Positions 7,188 to 16,458 of a DNA stretch of 25,192 nucleotides are shown piece after piece. A program made the position numbers and the translations under genes. The number at the start of each line of letters is the position of its first letter. Within the stretch, counting starts at the first letter, position 1. The notes below the pieces were generated by a model. The model saw only the letters and a program-made list of their open reading frames with translations, made no database searches and was not told the DNA's origin. Source of the stretch: a virus; the IMG/VR virus record IMGVR_UViG_3300026519_000316, positions 1 through 25,192 of that record, one strand, 5' to 3'.

Positions 7188-7216
7188 TTGCTAAGTGATT
7201 CAAAAGACTCGATTAT
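7188..7216 (+). promoter_or_regulatory. Candidate promoter for the cargo methyltransferase
   Basis: TTGCTA and GATTAT, each matching 4 of 6 bases of the sigma70 consensus, are separated by 17 bases. This would place the transcript start about 35 bases before the ATG at 7258. The AT-rich segment begins immediately after the portal stop. It is a weak match and may be chance; read-through from the late operon could also express the gene. Confidence 0.28.
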
Positions 7217-7257
7217 CGGACTCTTTACTAAGGCGCTGATTCTGTTAAGTTTTACCT

Positions 7258-7851
7258 ATGGATGTGACATACAACATTAATGGCGGGTACAAGCCGGCTG
7301 TAAAGCGTTTCGCCGACTTGGATGGACCGGATTTTTATCCCACTCCGAGATGGGCAACGTTTGCGTTGATTGATAACGAGCAGTTCACCGGGGATATCTG
7401 GGAGTGTGCTTGTGGCGACGGTTCGATGTCACGGGTGCTTCAAGAAACCGGCTGCAAGGTCCGCAGTTCTGACCTTTATGATCGCGGGTTCGGTGAGATT
7501 GGCGTCGACTTCAAGCATGCTTCTGATCGTGCTGACAACATCATCACGAATCCGCCTTACAATAGTGCGGAGTCGTTTGTTGCTCGCGGTACGGAACTTG
7601 CGGGAAAGAAATTTGCTCTTCTTTTGCGATTGGCGTTTCTTGAAGGTGCCAATCGCGCTCGTACGATTTTTAGCGATCGCCCGCCCTCTCGAGTTTGGGT
7701 GTTCAGCGAACGTATTACTTTCTATCCTGCCGGTGCTGAGCGGAAGGGAACGGGAACAACAGCTTACGCTTGGTTTGTTTGGGATAAAGACGCTCCTTCG
7801 GGAACGGAACTGCGTTGGTTCAAGCCGGGATACAAGAAGCAATTTTCCTAA
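7258..7851 (+). CDS. Phage-type class I SAM-dependent DNA methyltransferase (cargo gene)
   Basis: A 197-residue stand-alone methyltransferase. It has a SAM-binding motif WECACGDGSMSR (49-59), an acidic strand end SSDL (71-74), and the catalytic NPPY motif (98-101) typical of amino-methylating DNA enzymes, probably N6-adenine. The C-terminal LLLRLAFLEGANRAR and TTAYAWFVWDK blocks are familiar from small alphaproteobacterial phage methyltransferases. It is unrelated in layout to the methyltransferase at the window's start. The gene is AT-richer than its neighbours (one 60-base line counted by hand is 48% GC, against 60-67% in lines of the structural genes), and it separates portal from protease, so it looks like a later insertion. 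No clear ribosome binding site was seen. Its stop overlaps that of the convergent wHTH-like gene by 4 bases. No restriction enzyme gene was found beside it. Confidence 0.85.
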   Translation: MDVTYNINGGYKPAVKRFADLDGPDFYPTPRWATFALIDNEQFTGDIWECACGDGSMSRVLQETGCKVRSSDLYDRGFGEIGVDFKHASDRADNIITNPPYNSAESFVARGTELAGKKFALLLRLAFLEGANRARTIFSDRPPSRVWVFSERITFYPAGAERKGTGTTAYAWFVWDKDAPSGTELRWFKPGYKKQFS

Positions 7852-8162
7852 TAGCCTTTGCTTTTTAGGTATCTCCGGCCACTATCAGTTATTTGATAGC
7901 CAACACGAGGGATATGTCGCGCATATCCTTCGCATAAGATGTTCCCAGGTGTGTCTGAATGCGACTTTATGTTCCTGATTAGTTGCTCCCAAAGTTCCTC
8001 ATTTGGGCGGGTCATTGATTGCTGACGATCATCTGCGCTTAGCGTGACATAGTTAGGTATTTCTTTCTTTAGGCGATAGAACGTTGCAGTTCCGTTTGGC
8101 CGAGATGCTGCAATCTTTAGCGTGGCCAGAGAGATGTCGGCTTCTGTCACTCGTGAAGGCAT
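7848..8162 (-). CDS. Small winged-helix-like protein of unknown function (cargo gene)
   Basis: A 104-residue protein I do not recognise with certainty. The N-terminal half (ADISLATLKIAASRPNGTATFYRLKKEIPN) looks like a helix-turn-helix. The C-terminal part (EGYARHIPRVGYQITDSGRRYLKSKGY) has the wing pattern seen in Mrr-N-like and phage wHTH proteins, ending in a typical ITxxGRRYL helix. The start at 8162 is well supported: AGGAG (plus-strand CTCCT 8172-8176) lies 9 bases upstream and a promoter candidate sits before it. It is convergent with the methyltransferase, and their stops overlap. It may be a regulator of the cassette or part of a defence or modification unit; no nuclease motif is visible. 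Confidence 0.68.
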   Translation of the reverse strand: MPSRVTEADISLATLKIAASRPNGTATFYRLKKEIPNYVTLSADDRQQSMTRPNEELWEQLIRNIKSHSDTPGNILCEGYARHIPRVGYQITDSGRRYLKSKGY

Positions 8163-8199
8163 GGCAAAATACTCCTAATCATCTTCAATATGAGCAGGA

Positions 8200-8228
8200 A
8201 TTACAGCCGATTTCTTCCTTCGGCACAA
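8200..8228 (-). promoter_or_regulatory. Candidate promoter of the wHTH-like cargo gene
   Basis: Read on the minus strand, TTGTGC and TGTAAT are separated by 17 bases. The -10 element matches the consensus at 5 of 6 positions and the -35 at 3 of 6. The predicted transcript start lies about 30 bases before the ATG at 8162, with AGGAG in between. It would give expression opposite to the late operon. The rest of the stretch 8163-8352 holds no gene. Confidence 0.42.
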
Positions 8229-8352
8229 GCCCGCGATCACGCACGCTTGTCCGACTAATGCTCGTTGCCGACAGGGATTGGCAGGCTCGGTCAGAAAAGG
8301 ACTGTGCCCGATCGACGGCTGATCGTGCCGAGCAAAACATCATGGAGACAAC

Positions 8353-10359
8353 ATGGAAGACAGGATCGAACTGCCGGCCCTGCGCCGGCTTGCGGAATTT
8401 GCCCCCGGCACAGTGGACGAGACCACCCGCAGCATCGAGGTGGTCTGGTCCACCGGCGCACGCGTCCAGCGGCGCACGCTGTTCGGCGAGGCCCATGACG
8501 AGGAGCTGAGCCTGGAACCGGGCCATGTGCGGCTCGAACGCCTGAACGCCGGCGCTCCTTTCCTGCGCGTGCATGACGCGGGGGATCTGGATGCCGTGAT
8601 CGGCTCGGTGGTGCCCGGCTCGGTGCGCGTGGAAGAGGGGCGCGGGCTTGCACGCATTGCGCTTTCCGAGCGCGCCGAGGTCGAACCCATCTGGCGTGAC
8701 ATCAAGGCGGGCCACATCCGGGCGGTATCGATCGGCTACCAGGTTCATCGCTACGAGATCACCAGGCCCGAAGGCAGCCGCGAGCTGTGGCGCGCCGTGG
8801 ACTGGACGCCGTTTGAGATCTCGGCCGTCCCCGTGGGCGCCGACCCCGAGGCCGGGTTCCGCCACGGCTCTGATCTGCACGATTGCACGCTGGTGCGCAA
8901 ATACGAGACCCCAAGGATGAGGAATGCCCCGATGAAAGATGACACTACCCAAACGGATGCGGCGGAAACGACCACCACCGAGGAAACCACCACGCGCGCG
9001 CAACCCGCCGAAGATGCCGAACAGCGGGCTGCGCCTGATCCCGCGCCGCAGGACACACCGCACGACACGCGCGCCGAGATCGACGCCGCCCGCCTGGCCG
9101 AGCGCGAGCGGGTCTCGGCGATCCATGATCTGACCGCGCGTTTCGATCTCGGCCGCACGTTTGCCGATGATCTTGTCAAACGCGGCGTCTCGCTCGATGA
9201 GGCGCGTCGCGCAATCCTCGATGCGCTGGCCGAGAAATCCGACGAGACCCGCAGCTTTCCCCATGTGGAAATGCCGCTGGGTGGCCGGCACGAGGCGCTG
9301 ACCCGGCGCGAGGCGGTGGCCTCGGCGCTGTTGCACCGCTACAGCCCGACGCTGTTCCCGCTGGAAGATGCCGCGCGTGCCTATCGCGGCATGACGCTGA
9401 TGGAGATCGCCCGCGAATGCCTGGAAAGCGCGGGTACCAGCACGCGCGGGCTGTCGCGCGACGAGGTGGCGACGCGCGCGCTGCATTCGACCTCGGACTT
9501 CCCCGAGATCCTGTCGGCGGTCACGAACAAGACCCTGCGCCAGGCCTACGAGGCCTATCCCCGAACCTTCCAGCTGTTCTGCCGGCAGGTGCTGGCGACC
9601 GACTTCAAGGCCATGCACCGGGTGCAGCTGGGCGAGGCGCCGCAACTCTTGAAAGTCAACGAAAGTGGCGAGTTCAAGCGCGGCACGCTGGGGGAGGCAA
9701 AGGAAAGCTACCGCATCGAGACATATGGCCGGGTGGTGGCGATCACCCGGCAGGTGCTGATCAACGATGATCTCGACGCCTTCACCCGGATCCCGGCGAT
9801 GTATGGCAACTCGATTGCCCAGCTGGAAAGCGATGTGGTCTGGGGCATCATCACCTCGAACCCCGCGATGGCCGACGGCAAGGCGCTGTTCCATGCCTCT
9901 CACGGCAACCTTGCGGGCACCGGCGCGGCGCTTTCGGTCGACAGTGTCGGGGCGGCGCGCGCGGCCATGCGCAAGCAGACCGGGCTCGATGCAAAGACCG
10001 TGCTCAACATCCGCCCGGCCTATCTGATCGTACCCGCCGCACTGGAGCTCAAGGCCGAGCAGCTTCTGGCCCAGAACATCGTGCCGCCGAGCACCACGAA
10101 TGTGGTGCCGCAATCGATCCGCACGCTCAGCCCGATTGCCGAGCCGCGGCTCGATGCCGCAAGCGCCACCGCCTGGTATCTGGCAGCCTCGCCCAACCAG
10201 ATCGACACGATCGAGTATGCTTACCTCGAGGGTCAGCAGGGCGCCTATATCGAGACCCGCAACGGCTTTGACGTGGACGGGATCGAGATCAAGTGCCGGC
10301 TGGACTTCGGTGCCAAGGCGATCGACTGGCGCGGGCTTTACCGGAACCCGGGGGCGTGA
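8353..10359 (+). CDS. Prohead protease / major capsid protein fusion
   Basis: A single 668-residue polypeptide joining maturation protease, scaffold-like linker and HK97-fold major capsid protein. The N-terminal 170 residues are a U35/S78-type prohead protease, with LRVHDAGD (candidate catalytic His74) and AVSIGY (candidate nucleophile Ser126) followed by PFEISAVPVGADPEAG. Residues about 190-300 are Thr/Glu/Ala-rich and then helical, as expected for a scaffold or delta domain removed on maturation. From about 310 on the capsid domain follows (for example FPEILSAVTNKTLRQAY, FKRGTLGEAKESYRIETYGRVVAITRQVLINDDL). The start has GGAG 5 bases upstream. An internal in-frame start at 8932 could make the scaffold-capsid part alone. 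This fusion family is known in alphaproteobacterial prophages. Confidence 0.93.
   Translation: MEDRIELPALRRLAEFAPGTVDETTRSIEVVWSTGARVQRRTLFGEAHDEELSLEPGHVRLERLNAGAPFLRVHDAGDLDAVIGSVVPGSVRVEEGRGLARIALSERAEVEPIWRDIKAGHIRAVSIGYQVHRYEITRPEGSRELWRAVDWTPFEISAVPVGADPEAGFRHGSDLHDCTLVRKYETPRMRNAPMKDDTTQTDAAETTTTEETTTRAQPAEDAEQRAAPDPAPQDTPHDTRAEIDAARLAERERVSAIHDLTARFDLGRTFADDLVKRGVSLDEARRAILDALAEKSDETRSFPHVEMPLGGRHEALTRREAVASALLHRYSPTLFPLEDAARAYRGMTLMEIARECLESAGTSTRGLSRDEVATRALHSTSDFPEILSAVTNKTLRQAYEAYPRTFQLFCRQVLATDFKAMHRVQLGEAPQLLKVNESGEFKRGTLGEAKESYRIETYGRVVAITRQVLINDDLDAFTRIPAMYGNSIAQLESDVVWGIITSNPAMADGKALFHASHGNLAGTGAALSVDSVGAARAAMRKQTGLDAKTVLNIRPAYLIVPAALELKAEQLLAQNIVPPSTTNVVPQSIRTLSPIAEPRLDAASATAWYLAASPNQIDTIEYAYLEGQQGAYIETRNGFDVDGIEIKCRLDFGAKAIDWRGLYRNPGA
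8919..8934 (+). promoter_or_regulatory. Internal ribosome binding site and in-frame ATG inside the protease/capsid fusion
   Basis: GAGGA at 8919-8923, an 8-base spacer and ATG at 8932 lie in frame with the fusion at residue 194, exactly where the protease domain ends and the Thr/Glu-rich linker begins. Initiation here would give a 475-residue scaffold-capsid protein without protease. This parallels lambda Nu3, which is made from an internal start in gene C. The ATG at 8917 is in frame too but has a poorer spacing. Confidence 0.5.
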
Positions 10360-11814: not shown

Positions 11815-12342
11815 CTATTTGTCGTTTTTCATCCTGTTACCACCGGAAGACGATCTGTTGCTCAGATTCAACCACGGCAGGCAGGATGCCTTTTTCCCGG
11901 GCAGTCTTGACCAAGGATCACATGAGAGTTCGGAAATTGAGCGATTTCGCAGAGTTTCGAGGGCAGTAATGACAAGTTCTGCTTTCTCTTTACAGTCGTT
12001 CAAGCTGAATACACGGACGCCATGAACCATCTTGTTTCGCATCTTCACGGCCTCCGGAACTGGTTGCCAAATCTTCTGGCCGATGAAATCTGGAAGTGCC
12101 CGATTTTGCTTCTCGAAAATCGGCCAAACCTCTTTCATTGCCTCCAACCCGCTATTCTTGAAGAGCTTGTCGCATTGTTTGGAAGTGAGCCCTCTGTTCA
12201 ATGCGCAAAATCTGAGCGTTCTGCGCACTGTCTTCTCGAACGCAAATACAGAAGCCAGAAGTGCTTCTGCATGATGGCCCCCTTGTATTAGATTATTCAT
12301 TCGTGTTTCAGCTTCTAGGTAGCCACGGTTTACGGGATACAT
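11815..12342 (-). CDS. HEPN-like protein with R-x4-H motif (cargo gene)
   Basis: A 175-residue, probably all-helical protein. It carries VKMRNKMVHGVR with R102-N103-x3-H107, the R-x4-6-H active site signature of HEPN-family RNases, between a helix EALLASVFAFEKTVRRTLRF (27-44) and a C-terminal helix KAELVITALETLRN. The arrangement fits HEPN or Abi-like proteins that bind and cleave RNA; the family call rests on this motif and the predicted helices only. The ATG at 12342 was chosen because AAAGG lies 9 bases upstream and the longer frame (to 12522) reads into the next phage gene. Its GC is lower than the structural genes (48% in one hand-counted line). It is antisense to the late operon and wedged between neck and tail-terminator genes, so it is a likely moron. 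No MNT nucleotidyltransferase partner is next to it. Confidence 0.72.
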   Translation of the reverse strand: MYPVNRGYLEAETRMNNLIQGGHHAEALLASVFAFEKTVRRTLRFCALNRGLTSKQCDKLFKNSGLEAMKEVWPIFEKQNRALPDFIGQKIWQPVPEAVKMRNKMVHGVRVFSLNDCKEKAELVITALETLRNRSISELSCDPWSRLPGKKASCLPWLNLSNRSSSGGNRMKNDK

Positions 12343-12385
12343 TGAATCGTGCCTTTCGTAGGATGTCCTTTCCGGAAATATCCCT

Positions 12386-12413
12386 ACTTTAGGGCAGGTT
12401 GGACGCCGTTCAA
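12386..12413 (-). promoter_or_regulatory. Candidate promoter of the HEPN-like cargo gene
   Basis: Read on the minus strand, TTGAAC and TAAAGT (each 4 of 6 to consensus) are 16 bases apart. The transcript would start about 37 bases before the ATG at 12342. The 112-base interval 12343-12454 separates this gene from the divergent tail terminator gene and holds no other coding sequence. Confidence 0.38.
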
Positions 12414-12454
12414 AGTCTCGACGGAAACTGCCGAATAGGAGTGCAAATCCCATC

Positions 12455-12886
12455 ATGCCCTCCCCCCGCGAATCCACCCTGCAGGCCCTGCTTGCAGCCC
12501 TGCAAACCATGCCCAACGCCACCGTCCTGCGCGGCGAGGTGCTGCCCGAGCGGATCCCGGCCGGCGGCCTTGTGATCCTGCGCGACGGCGAGCCCGGGGA
12601 GCCGGAAGTGACGCTGTCCCCGCTTCAGTACCACTACGAACATCGCGCCGAGATCGAGGTGATCGTGCAAGGCAAGACGCCTGCCGACCGGGACCCGGCG
12701 TTTGACGCGCTCATCCAGGCCATTGGCACCGCGCTCGCCGCCGACCGCACATTGGGCGGCACCTGCGACTGGGTGGAGGCACAGGCGCCGGCGCCGACCG
12801 ATCTCGCACAGGAGGGCGCCGAAGGGATCAAGGCCGCCGTGGTGCCGGTGATCCTGAGCTATTCCACCGCTGACCCGCTGAGCTGA
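12455..12886 (+). CDS. Tail terminator-like protein (lambda gpU slot)
   Basis: A 143-residue protein (STLQALLAALQTMPNATVLRGEVLPERIPAGGLVILRDGEPGEPEVTLSP...) of a family common in alphaproteobacterial prophages, sometimes mislabelled acyl-CoA transferase. The pattern of an N-terminal helix, a strand with VILRDG, YHYEHRAEIEVIVQG and a helix DPAFDALIQAIGTAL resembles tail terminator proteins (gpU/DUF3168-like) that cap the tail tube. Its position directly before the tube gene supports this. An AGGAG lies 13 bases upstream, longer than usual, perhaps because the adjoining cargo insertion altered the leader. Confidence 0.72.
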   Translation: MPSPRESTLQALLAALQTMPNATVLRGEVLPERIPAGGLVILRDGEPGEPEVTLSPLQYHYEHRAEIEVIVQGKTPADRDPAFDALIQAIGTALAADRTLGGTCDWVEAQAPAPTDLAQEGAEGIKAAVVPVILSYSTADPLS

Positions 12887-12910: not shown

Positions 12911-13849
12911 ATGGCACGAGCCCAGGGGGCGCGGGCGCAGATGGCGCTTGCGTTCGAGACAAGTTATGGCACCGCCCCGACGGGCGGGTACTACCAGATG
13001 CCCTTTGCCAGCGCATCATTGGGCGCCGAGCAGCCGCTCTTGAGCCCCGAGCTTCTGGGCTATGGCAGGGATCCTCAGCCGCCGATCAAGGATGCGGTGA
13101 CGGCCGATGGCGACATCACCGTGCCGATCGAGGCAGAAAGCTGGGGCGTCTGGCTGAAGGCGGCGTTCGGAGACCCGACAACCACCGGCACCGGGCCCTA
13201 CACCCATACATTCCTGTCAGGCAATTGGGCACTGCCGAGCATGAGCATCGAGATCGGCATGCCAGAGGTGCCCCATTACGCGATGTATTCGGGCTGCAAG
13301 CTCGACAAGCTCAGCTGGCAGATGGGGCGCTCGGGATTGCTGACCGCCACCGCCAGCCTGATCGCGCAGGGCGAAAGCGTAGGCGTGGCAAGCGGCGCCG
13401 GCACACCCTCCGGCTGGGCGATGAAGCGTTTCGGCCATTTCAACGGGGCGATCACGCGCAACGGCGTCAGCCTCGGCAACGTGGTTTCGGCCGAAATCAC
13501 CTACGAGAACAATCTCGATCGGATCGAAACCATCCGCGCCGATGGGCGTATCGACGGGGCCGATCCCGGCATGGCGGCGCTGACCGGGCGCATCGAAGTG
13601 CGCTTTGCCGACACCACGCTGCTGAACCAGGCCATCAATGGCACGGCGGCCGAGCTGAAGTTCACCTACAGCCTGACCAGCGGCGAGAGCTTCGAGCTGA
13701 TCGCCCACGCCGTTTATCTGCCCCGCCCGCGCCTGCAGATTCAGGGGCCGCGAGGCATTCAGGCCAGTTTCGACTGGCAGGCGGCCTATGACAGCGTGGC
13801 CGGGCAGATGTGCACCGCCACCCTGATCAATGACATTGCCACCTATTGA
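12911..13849 (+). CDS. Phage tail tube (major tail) protein
   Basis: A 312-residue protein of the phage tail tube family that polymerises into the inner tail. The N-terminus ALAFETSYGTAPTGGYYQMPFASASLGAEQPLL, the central ADGDITVPIEAESWGVWLKAAFG and the VSAEITYENNLDRIETIRADGRIDGADPGMAALTG block are typical. The C-terminal SFELIAHAVYLPRPRLQIQGPRGIQASFDWQA fits the late beta strands. The start has AAGGA 9 bases upstream. It lies between tail terminator and chaperone genes, the canonical siphophage order. Confidence 0.88.
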   Translation: MARAQGARAQMALAFETSYGTAPTGGYYQMPFASASLGAEQPLLSPELLGYGRDPQPPIKDAVTADGDITVPIEAESWGVWLKAAFGDPTTTGTGPYTHTFLSGNWALPSMSIEIGMPEVPHYAMYSGCKLDKLSWQMGRSGLLTATASLIAQGESVGVASGAGTPSGWAMKRFGHFNGAITRNGVSLGNVVSAEITYENNLDRIETIRADGRIDGADPGMAALTGRIEVRFADTTLLNQAINGTAAELKFTYSLTSGESFELIAHAVYLPRPRLQIQGPRGIQASFDWQAAYDSVAGQMCTATLINDIATY

Positions 13850-13857
13850 GGAACACC

Positions 13858-14301
13858 ATGATCCGACTTGACCTGAACGCGGGGCCGGAATGGCTCGACC
13901 TCGGCCACGGGGTGCGGTTGAAGCTGCTGCCGCTCACCACCGCGCTGATGGCTGCCGCCCGTGCCGATGAGGCGGTGGAGAGCCTTCCCGAAGATACCCC
14001 GGACGAGACCCGCGCCATCGTGTTTGCCAAGGCCATCGCCCGGCGCGCGGTCATCGACTGGGCCGGTATCGGCGATGCAGAGGGTGAGCCCCTCGCGCCC
14101 ACGCCCAAGGCTATCGATGCGCTGCTCGACGTCTACCCGCTCTTCGAGGCCTTCCAGCTTGGCTATGTCGCGAGCGGCCTGGTGTTGGATCAGGAAAAAA
14201 ACGGCTCATCGCCCTTGCCGAGTGGCACTTCGGCGGGGGCGACAGATACTGCGAGGGCTGCGAGCCCCGCGGCGCCTGCCAGGACTGCCCGGCAAGGCTG
14301 A
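13858..14301 (+). CDS. Tail assembly chaperone, zero-frame product (lambda gpG analogue)
   Basis: A 147-residue protein by position and layout corresponding to the first tail assembly chaperone, which binds the tape measure during tail assembly. The start at 13858 has GAGG 6 bases upstream; a TTG at 13846 is in frame but lies before that site. The first 115 residues look like an ordinary folded domain (IRLDLNAGPEWLDLGHGVRLKLLPLTTALMAAAR, then YPLFEAFQLGYVASGLVLDQE). After a run of seven A bases at 14195-14201 the zero frame becomes a low-complexity Ser/Ala/Thr/Pro tail. The -1 frame past that point encodes a structured domain, so a fraction of ribosomes probably shift. Confidence 0.82.
   Translation: MIRLDLNAGPEWLDLGHGVRLKLLPLTTALMAAARADEAVESLPEDTPDETRAIVFAKAIARRAVIDWAGIGDAEGEPLAPTPKAIDALLDVYPLFEAFQLGYVASGLVLDQEKNGSSPLPSGTSAGATDTARAASPAAPARTARQG
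14196..14202 (+). promoter_or_regulatory. A AAA AAC slippery heptamer, probable -1 programmed frameshift site
   Basis: In the zero frame of the chaperone gene the codons are GAA AAA AAC, so the heptamer A AAA AAC is in the canonical X XXY YYZ phase, within a run of seven A. About 14 bases downstream, 14217-14234 can fold as GCCGAGT/ACTTCGGC with one bulged base and a GGC loop, a possible stimulator. Frameshifting between the two tail chaperone genes is a conserved feature of siphophages (lambda G/GT). Confidence 0.72.
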
Positions 14302-14528
14302 ACCGCCCCGCAACACTGGAGGGCTGGCAAGTCTGGGACTTGGCTCTGCGCCTCGGCGGGCAGCTTCGGGTTTCGGACGGCGCCGCCTTCGGCTGGGACA
14401 TGGGTGCAGCATTGGCGATGGCCCGGGCGCTGGGGGTGAACCCGCTCGTGGCCGCTGAATTACTGCCGGCCATTGAAGCCGTCGCCATCCGCAAGATCAA
14501 TGAAGAGATGAACGCGAACCATGGGTGA
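14202..14528 (+). CDS. Tail assembly chaperone, -1 frame extension (lambda T analogue)
   Basis: This 108-residue stretch continues the preceding gene in the -1 frame, giving a fusion of about 223 residues. It contains AEWHFGGGDRYCEGCEPRG followed by ACQDCPARLNRP, a C-x2-C-x5-C-x2-C cluster that probably binds zinc. A helical part follows (GWQVWDLALRLGGQLRV, FGWDMGAALAMARALG, ELLPAIEAVAIRKINEEM). No plausible start codon precedes the Cys cluster in this frame; the first candidates are a TTG at 14340 and an ATG at 14399, both after it. Frameshift expression is therefore the simplest reading. The stop overlaps the tape-measure ATG by 8 bases. The GT-type fusion would recruit tape measure and tube subunits. 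Confidence 0.75.
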   Translation, partial: RLIALAEWHFGGGDRYCEGCEPRGACQDCPARLNRPATLEGWQVWDLALRLGGQLRVSDGAAFGWDMGAALAMARALGVNPLVAAELLPAIEAVAIRKINEEMNANHG

Positions 14529-16458
14529 AAAACGCATCAGCGTGCGCCTTGCCGCCGTGGGTGGCGAGAAGCTGAAGGCCGAGCTTGTGGGCATCGGCAA
14601 GGCCGGCAAGCAGGCGCTGGCAGCAGTGTCGGGCGGCGCGGCGCCGGCAAGCCAGGGGCTCAAGGGCGTGGGCGCGGCGTCCGGCACGGCGCTGGTGCAA
14701 CTTGAAGCACTGGCGGCACGGGCCACGCGGGCGGCAACGGCGCTCAGGGCGGCTGGCGCCTCGACGGGTACGCTGGTGGAGCGGATCGACCGGGTCACCG
14801 GCGTCACCCCCGGTTTTCGCCGCAGTGCCGAGGATATCGCCGCTTATGGGCGCGCGCTCGATGACACGCGTGCAAAATTCAACCCGCTCTTTGCCACAAT
14901 CCGCGACTACAAGGCCAGGCTTGCCGAGATCCGGCAGGCCCATGCGGTGGGGGCAATCTCGGCAGACGAGATGCGCGCCGCCATCAGCCGCGAGCGTCAG
15001 GCGACATTGCAAAGTATCGCCGCCATCAAGGGCCGAACGACGGCACTCACAGGCATGGGGCGGGCCTCGCGCATGGCGGCGTTCCAGAGCCGGATGCTGA
15101 TGTTTCAATTGAACGACGTGTTCGTGTCGCTGGCCTCGGGCATGAACCCGATGATGGTGTTCATTCAGCAGGGCGCGCAGATCCAGCAGATCTATGCGGG
15201 CCAAGGCGGCGTGAGGGCGGCGTTGGCCCAGACCGCAAGAATGATCGGCAATGTGGTCACCAGCTTTCCGCTGCTGCCTGCGGCGATTGCGGCGGGAACG
15301 GCGGCTGTTGCTGGCATGCGTCACGAGATCAACCGCACGTCGAAGGTGGCAGTGAGTTTCGGCGATACCGCCCTTGCCGTCTGGCAGGTGGTGCGCGACG
15401 GGCTGTGGCAAAAGCTCAAGCCCGCCATCGATGCCATCGCCCCGTGGTTCGCCAGGGGCTGGGAAATAGTGGTGTCAGGCACGAAGATCGCGCTCAACGG
15501 CATCATCAAGGGCTTTCTGATCGCAAAGAACGATATCGCCTTCACCTGGGCGAGCTTGCCCGAAATCCTTGGAGCAGCGGTGGTTGGCACGGCCAATGCG
15601 GTGATCGGCGGTCTGGAATGGATGGTCAACACCGCGATCGACAAGATCAACTGGCTGGCCGATCAGGTGAATACCCTGATGGACAAGGCCGGCGCGCCTG
15701 AAGCCATGCGCATTGGCCGGATCGGCTCCACCGCATTTCCGCGCCTCGACAACCCGATGGCTGACGAGGTTGCGCGCAGGCTCGCGCGCCTCAATGACGA
15801 TCTCGCACGGATCATGGCAAGCGATCCGATGGGGGATTTCTTCGATGCCGTGAAGGCACGGGCGGTGGCCAACGCTCTGAAGAATGTTGAAAAGGCCGTC
15901 ACCGGCGCCGGTAAGGCCGCGAGCAAGGCGGCCGAGGTGGCGAAGTCCGCCTGGGAGACAGCGGCCACCGCGCTCAAGGACTACGCGACCAAGGCCATGG
16001 ACCTCGGCAAGGGGCTGGGCGACAGCCTAGTTGGGGCGTTCCGCAGTGCCGAGAATGCCATTGGCGAGTTTGTGAAAACCGGCAAGCTGGATTTCCGGTC
16101 TCTGGTCACCTCGATCCTGGCCGACATGGCGAAGCTGTCGGCACGCAGGTTCATCTTCGGCCCGCTCGCAGACGCGCTGTCCGGCGCGCTGGGCGGGATT
16201 GGCGCCCCGGGCGGGGTGCTGGCCAATGTCTTCCACTCTGGCGGTGTCGTGGGAACTGTTGCGCCCACGCGGGCGATCCCGGCGCGGGCCTTCGCGGGTG
16301 CTCCACGGATGCACGGGGGCGGTTGGGCAGGTGCGGGCGGCGCCCAGAACATCACCATCAACATCCAGACCCGCGATGCCGAGAGTTTCCGGCAATCCCG
16401 CGCCCAGGTTGCAGCCGATATTGCCCGCGCTGTGGCGCTTGGCAGGCGGGGGATGTAG
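14521..16458 (+). CDS. Tail length tape measure protein
   Basis: A 645-residue tape measure protein of the lambda-like family; its length sets tail length and suggests a fairly short siphovirus tail. The N-terminal region has Ala-rich helices (ATRAATALRAAGASTG). The family block MLMFQLNDVFVSLASGMNPMMVFIQQGAQIQQIYAGQGG lies at about 193-231, followed by hydrophobic segments including FPLLPAAIAAGTAAVAG (about 250-266) and a stretch near 310-370. Then come a helical Ala/Lys-rich part and the C-terminal lambda-type domain (GDSLVGAFRSAENAIGEFVKTGKLDFRSLVTSILADMAKLSARRFIFGPL). The end, GGAQNITINIQTRDAESFRQSRAQVAADIARAV, is the common C-terminal strand-helix motif. Confidence 0.92.
   Translation: MGEKRISVRLAAVGGEKLKAELVGIGKAGKQALAAVSGGAAPASQGLKGVGAASGTALVQLEALAARATRAATALRAAGASTGTLVERIDRVTGVTPGFRRSAEDIAAYGRALDDTRAKFNPLFATIRDYKARLAEIRQAHAVGAISADEMRAAISRERQATLQSIAAIKGRTTALTGMGRASRMAAFQSRMLMFQLNDVFVSLASGMNPMMVFIQQGAQIQQIYAGQGGVRAALAQTARMIGNVVTSFPLLPAAIAAGTAAVAGMRHEINRTSKVAVSFGDTALAVWQVVRDGLWQKLKPAIDAIAPWFARGWEIVVSGTKIALNGIIKGFLIAKNDIAFTWASLPEILGAAVVGTANAVIGGLEWMVNTAIDKINWLADQVNTLMDKAGAPEAMRIGRIGSTAFPRLDNPMADEVARRLARLNDDLARIMASDPMGDFFDAVKARAVANALKNVEKAVTGAGKAASKAAEVAKSAWETAATALKDYATKAMDLGKGLGDSLVGAFRSAENAIGEFVKTGKLDFRSLVTSILADMAKLSARRFIFGPLADALSGALGGIGAPGGVLANVFHSGGVVGTVAPTRAIPARAFAGAPRMHGGGWAGAGGAQNITINIQTRDAESFRQSRAQVAADIARAVALGRRGM

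Follow-up and report, generated by a model that had tools for sequence, protein, structure and literature searches.

We analysed a window of 25,192 nt (the whole stretch, positions 1 to 25,192 of the IMG/VR virus record IMGVR_UViG_3300026519_000316) in which the genes run in the order terminase, portal, protease-capsid, tail terminator, tail tube, chaperone region, tape measure and tail-tip genes. A Rcc01695-like distal tail protein, a hub and 'megatron' genes, which make up a GTA-like tail-tip set, follow the tape measure, and the window lies within an operon of structural genes belonging to a tailed phage or prophage. Between the portal and protease-capsid genes lies a low-G+C island (7200-8400, about 50% vs 67%). 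It holds a plus-strand ORF (7258-7851) with an NPPY motif, methyltransferase-like by eye and with no Pfam match, and a minus-strand ORF (7848-8162) with no match. An antisense cargo gene (11815-12522, minus strand) sits in a G+C dip between the neck genes; its product contains RNKMVHG, which looks like a HEPN RNase motif, and has a weak PADLOC match to RTasHEPN (E 0.0026). At 1097-2334, on the minus strand, a PIN-domain protein adjoins a helix-turn-helix protein (HTH_17; mad1-like in PADLOC), and the two are probably a toxin-antitoxin pair or part of a MADS-like defence cargo. The chaperone region is flanked by the tail tube and tape-measure genes, as are lambda G and GT, and its features are collected in Table 1.

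Table 1. Features of the chaperone region and the two genes that flank it (window coordinates).
Feature	Position	Strand	Support
Major tail tube protein, immediately 5' of the chaperone ORF	12911..13849	+	Pfam Phage_tube_2, E 7.8e-60
G-type tail assembly chaperone read in the zero frame, 147 aa, conserved over residues 1-115	13858..14301	+	phrog_313, E 3.5e-14; alignments A3/A7
Slip heptamer A AAA AAC, in the reading phase of ATG 13858	14196..14202	+	Kept in place in 166 of the 182 distinct homologues
Spacer, 6 nt	14203..14208	+	
Predicted stimulatory stem-loop, 14 bp, 6-nt loop	14209..14242	+	Conserved; more stable than synonymous recodings
Zero-frame tail past the slip, 32 Ala/Pro/Ser-rich residues and stop; dispensable	14203..14301	+	1 or 0 residues in some relatives
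-1 frame ORF, T domain, 108 aa, without a start codon ahead of the Cys cluster	14202..14528	+	
Cys4 cluster C-x2-C-x5-C-x2-C, T residues 17-29	14250..14288	+	182 of 182 distinct homologues
Region of DUF7697 and phrog_11212, spanning T residues 60-108, with the phrog alignment at 55-107	14379..14525	+	PF24752, E 4.3e-24; phrog_11212, E 2.7e-24
Tape-measure protein, start shares 8 nt with the -1 ORF	14521..16458	+	Tape_meas_lam_C, E 8.9e-20; TMP_2, E 1.3e-17

The zero-frame gene is related to known tail assembly chaperones, its residues 1-115 matching the family phrog_313. Past the slip site it becomes low in complexity, as a first-pass annotation made from the sequence had noted: 32 Ala/Ser/Pro/Thr-rich codons lead to a TGA at 14299-14301. 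The -1 frame is open across the slip, has no start of its own and ends at the tape-measure start, as T does in lambda; its 108 codons run to a TGA at 14526-14528. The earliest ATG, GTG or TTG in this frame is the TTG at 14340, 3' of the Cys cluster. The first-pass annotation had rightly described the overlap with the tape measure and the lack of a plausible start before the cysteines, and its estimate of about 223 residues for the fusion agrees with the 223 aa obtained by joining the G and T parts.

Seven As occupy 14195-14201 and are followed by C. Since the zero-frame codons are GAA AAA AAC (Glu-Lys-Asn), the in-phase A AAA AAC that had been claimed within this run is present, and it sits at the end of the conserved part of the chaperone gene. 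AAAAAAC occurs once in the window, and chance alone would give about 0.64 copies; the motif by itself is therefore no proof, and we rejected it as evidence. We drew close relatives from IMG/VR, GTDB genomes and phage records, obtaining 195 loci, 182 of them distinct. They include near-identical alphaproteobacterial-type chaperone pairs in phages recorded from cyanobacteria (L005/L006, Nostoc and Synechococcus phages), whose host assignment may deserve a check. At the same place the 182 loci carry A AAA AAC (166), G GGA AAC (11), A AAA AAA (2) or A AAA AAG (1), and there are two exceptions, an AAAGAAC beside undetermined bases and one GGGACAC. This swapping of slippery heptamers at a fixed place fits the prediction of selection for slipping. 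Nearly all loci use AAA for the Lys at the slip, although AAG is the preferred codon in the rest of these genes (201 AAG vs 78 AAA). Counting against a frameshift, A_AAA_AAC is less shift-prone in E. coli than A_AAA_AAG (PMC5009743). The run is exactly seven As long in 80 of the 86 loci of the first homologue set. Loci with other lengths, namely eight As in two fused lineages (L013; L032, on the same contig as L161) and six in L143 and L148, may be sequence errors. With eight As, G and T form a continuous fusion in L013 (2656-3333) and L032/L161, and L048, near L032, has seven; the fusions may reflect either a sequence error or a real loss of the frameshift.

The stem that had been placed 14 bases later is found there, beginning 14 nt past the first A and 6 nt past the heptamer, with a predicted stability of -25.8 kcal/mol. 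When a 106-nt stretch was folded, none of 200 shuffles was equally stable (z = -3.1). We also recoded the codons past the slip synonymously in the -1 frame: across 69 loci the natural sequences were more stable than their recodings by a mean z of -2.31; in a control stretch taken from this ORF the figure was -0.15. For the window's own stem the excess is modest (z -1.76, with 14 of 200 recodings as stable). In the alignment, 90.6% of cells are paired at the stem position vs 45-53% when the stem is slid. Changes on both sides were seen in only four stem pairs. Because compensatory changes are few, we rejected covariation as the main support; the recoding test carries the weight, and the case for the stem is mainly one of conserved stability and position. 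By the recoding test, the stem is under selection beyond the amino-acid sequence.

Across the heptamer, the signature of coding changes frame. In the window, G+C by codon position is 0.74/0.44/0.82 for the zero frame before the slip; after it, the values are 0.69/0.63/0.91 for the -1 frame and 0.63/0.91/0.69 for the zero frame. Among 149 comparable loci, differences upstream of the slip peak at zero-frame third positions (522331 of 1103742) and those downstream at third positions in the -1 frame (48890 of 79810), these totals being pairwise counts of events that are not independent. Over the first 16 codons past the slip, protein identity is 0.83 in the -1 frame vs 0.70 in the zero frame. Coding constraint lies on the zero frame up to the heptamer and on the -1 frame beyond it. 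Stop codons narrow the point of crossing further: two loci have a -1-frame TGA directly 5' of the As (L051, L066), so that entry into the -1 frame can be no earlier, and four have a zero-frame TGA one codon past the heptamer (L047, L069, L070, L079), leaving a zero-frame tail of one residue, so that the shift can be no later. With one frame closed by a stop beside the heptamer in some relatives, the crossing must occur at the heptamer.

Three other accounts of this arrangement have to be weighed. In one, RNA polymerase would slip on the seven As and add one A, and part of the mRNA would then read G and T in frame. Both the constancy of the A run and the fusion of the frames in the eight-A loci would suit this. 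Transcriptional slippage on an A run is ill-suited, however, to the 11 distinct loci with G GGA AAC, which have no A run longer than three at the same place. Selection on a downstream stem is what would be expected of ribosomal -1 shifting instead, and seven As are a short run for efficient transcriptional slippage. We consider this account very unlikely. An error of sequencing or assembly, by which one A was lost from a gene that is truly a single continuous fusion, could likewise appeal to the continuous eight-A loci. Nearly all 182 distinct loci break frame at the same site, though, and they come from different studies and species and include isolate genomes; the break also occurs in the G GGA AAC loci, away from any error-prone homopolymer. 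Its probability is practically nil, and the independent loci already refute it.

It could also be that the -1 ORF starts internally, at TTG 14340 or ATG 14400, that there are two separate genes and that the heptamer is incidental. Gene callers imply as much, with DUF7697 and phrog_11212 matching T residues 55-108 only, and the annotation of Nostoc phage Nsp-JY21 lists a second chaperone as a gene of its own. Conservation of the -1 frame nonetheless begins at the first codon past the slip and takes in the Cys4 part, which an internal start would omit. Moreover, the stretch from the slip to the first Cys is free of start codons in 181 of the 182 loci, and in 130 this holds as far back as the stop codon before it, making separate genes extremely unlikely. 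The first-pass annotation had named two patterns that would speak against a frameshift, and neither appears among the homologues, because stops bracket the heptamer and starts are missing before the first Cys in all loci but one. The zero-frame tail is not kept (one residue in four loci, none in DUF1799-type loci), and no locus was found that cleanly lacks the slip site while starting its two frames separately. The alignment of homologues that it had proposed finds the slip site conserved in nearly all of the 182 distinct loci and the Cys cluster in every one.

The predicted frameshifted part contains cysteines at T residues 17, 20, 26 and 29, the C-x2-C-x5-C-x2-C of the first-pass annotation. 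In the window they form two Cys-x2-Cys knuckles; all four are kept in each of the 182 distinct loci and are invariant in alignments A5 and A6. The spacing between the two pairs varies widely among homologues, and in a distant clade the first pair is itself spaced x3 or more; that clade (L168-L196) has the same Cys4 T domain behind a G part apparently unrelated by sequence. The PF24752 (DUF7697) profile scores 84.6 bits against the -1 product (cut-off 27). The T family members match DUF7697 in 43 of 43 cases, phrog_11212 in 41 and PF08809 in 6. DUF7697 (52 aa) and phrog_11212 (55 aa) represent the C-terminal half of the -1 product and were apparently modelled on gene calls with an internal start, from which the first half is missing. 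Two families of 'unknown function' would then be frameshifted T domains cut down to their C-terminal half, and across a common group of phages and prophages in Alphaproteobacteria, gene callers would be dropping the conserved Cys4 stretch. The claim that standard gene calling misses the fusion is borne out by these models, which start past the Cys cluster, but not by the records of phages RcHotPocket and RcKemmy, which annotate the joined product. Sister T domains, of the DUF1799 type, can be aligned to DUF7697 across residues 37-105 (hhalign E 9.1e-6, probability 83) and have the same slip arrangement without the Cys cluster. On this distribution, we regard the Cys4 cluster as a lineage-specific feature.

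For structure we used AlphaFold2 with alignments lacking rows from phage records, modelling G and T apart because a mixed alignment with the natural fusion L013 misaligned. The T model is mainly helical (pLDDT 90.8) and the G model has a mixed fold (pLDDT 88.5). Neither had a fold match in the PDB, and profile searches gave nothing useful; the T model weakly resembles predicted phage tape-measure/tail assembly chaperones in BFVD (best E 0.037). Its Cys stretch is modelled as a helix (13-19), a loop and a second helix (30-33) at pLDDT about 76-81, with no beta ribbon, and no zinc-ribbon family is among the Pfam matches of the window or of the 43 T members. Of the 'zinc-ribbon-like' cluster in the first-pass annotation, the four cysteines stand, and a zinc-ribbon fold is unsupported. 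A speculative and rather unlikely idea is that the cysteines bind metal as a rigid joint or switch between G and T, tube assembly proceeding only when T is metal-loaded or reduced. If true, this would be a metal-dependent tail chaperone produced solely by frameshifting. The cluster gives this chaperone, for whose T part little structural knowledge exists so far, a specific feature open to testing.

Every comparative test run supports the frameshift that had been claimed, and we put the probability at about 0.95 that a programmed -1 frameshift, a stem-aided slip at A AAA AAC, yields G/GT-type tail chaperones from one start. Most ribosomes would complete the 147-aa G; we infer that in the cell a minority slip by -1 at the heptamer, aided by the stem 6 nt downstream, at whatever efficiency the signal sets, and make the 223-aa GT, whose T part would bear the Cys4 cluster and the DUF7697 helices. 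If the proteins work as in lambda, G would coat the tape-measure protein, the T part of GT would recruit tail-tube protein and so start tube assembly, and both would depart before the tail is complete. That this lambda-like working applies here we infer from position and homology.

The -1 frameshift of lambda gpG/gpGT is the established case (Levin 1993; Xu 2004, 2013, 2014, as cited in PMC5009743). There, many G copies bind the tape measure, GT comes from a small share of ribosomes, and T, by binding the tail tube protein, initiates its polymerisation (PMC5009743). In an HK97-like chaperone cluster, measured efficiencies are 6-7% (PMC3711429). Acinetobacter phage Loki has AAAAAAC beside an upstream stop and a predicted gp12-gp13 fusion (PMC5313236), and its 262-aa putative tail assembly chaperone weakly resembles the T model in structure (E 0.5). 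Among the open-licence titles listed (15 of 20 papers), none concerns a zinc-binding tail chaperone, nor does the Loki paper (PMC5313236). The same literature yielded no paper on DUF7697 or on DUF1799 with frameshifting, and no description of the Cys4 cluster or of DUF7697/phrog_11212 as halves of a frameshifted T.

Like the window, the DUF1799 (PF08809) T domains of Alphaproteobacteria are entered at A AAA AAC or G GGA AAC, with probable homology over residues 37-105, but they have another segment in place of the Cys4 cluster and a zero-frame TGA directly past the heptamer. This compact layout, with a zero-frame tail of 0 residues, was seen in ten usable loci (L197-L207). In L199 and L201, Asn-Cys-rich tandem repeats (QENCLQENC, YQNTCQNTC) stand just 5' of the DUF1799 part. 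The DUF7697 (PF24752)/phrog_11212 models, unlike the window's T, begin 3' of the Cys cluster. Direct homologues are RcHotPocket, RcKemmy and relatives (MW677515, MW677517; PMC8601537), 44-49% identical over the fusion and with the same Cys4. Their heptamer is G GGA AAC where the window has A AAA AAC, their records carry a two-piece joined CDS 'tail assembly chaperone', and the paper calls the frameshift usual in tail assembly chaperone genes (PMC8601537). The frameshift class and this joined annotation were known already, and the window is a new member of the lambda G/GT class. It shares with lambda a gene that lies between those of the major tail protein and the tape measure, an in-phase X XXY YYZ and a start-less -1 T; it differs in having A AAA AAC with a 14-bp stem and a conserved Cys4 in T, and the likeness rests on layout.
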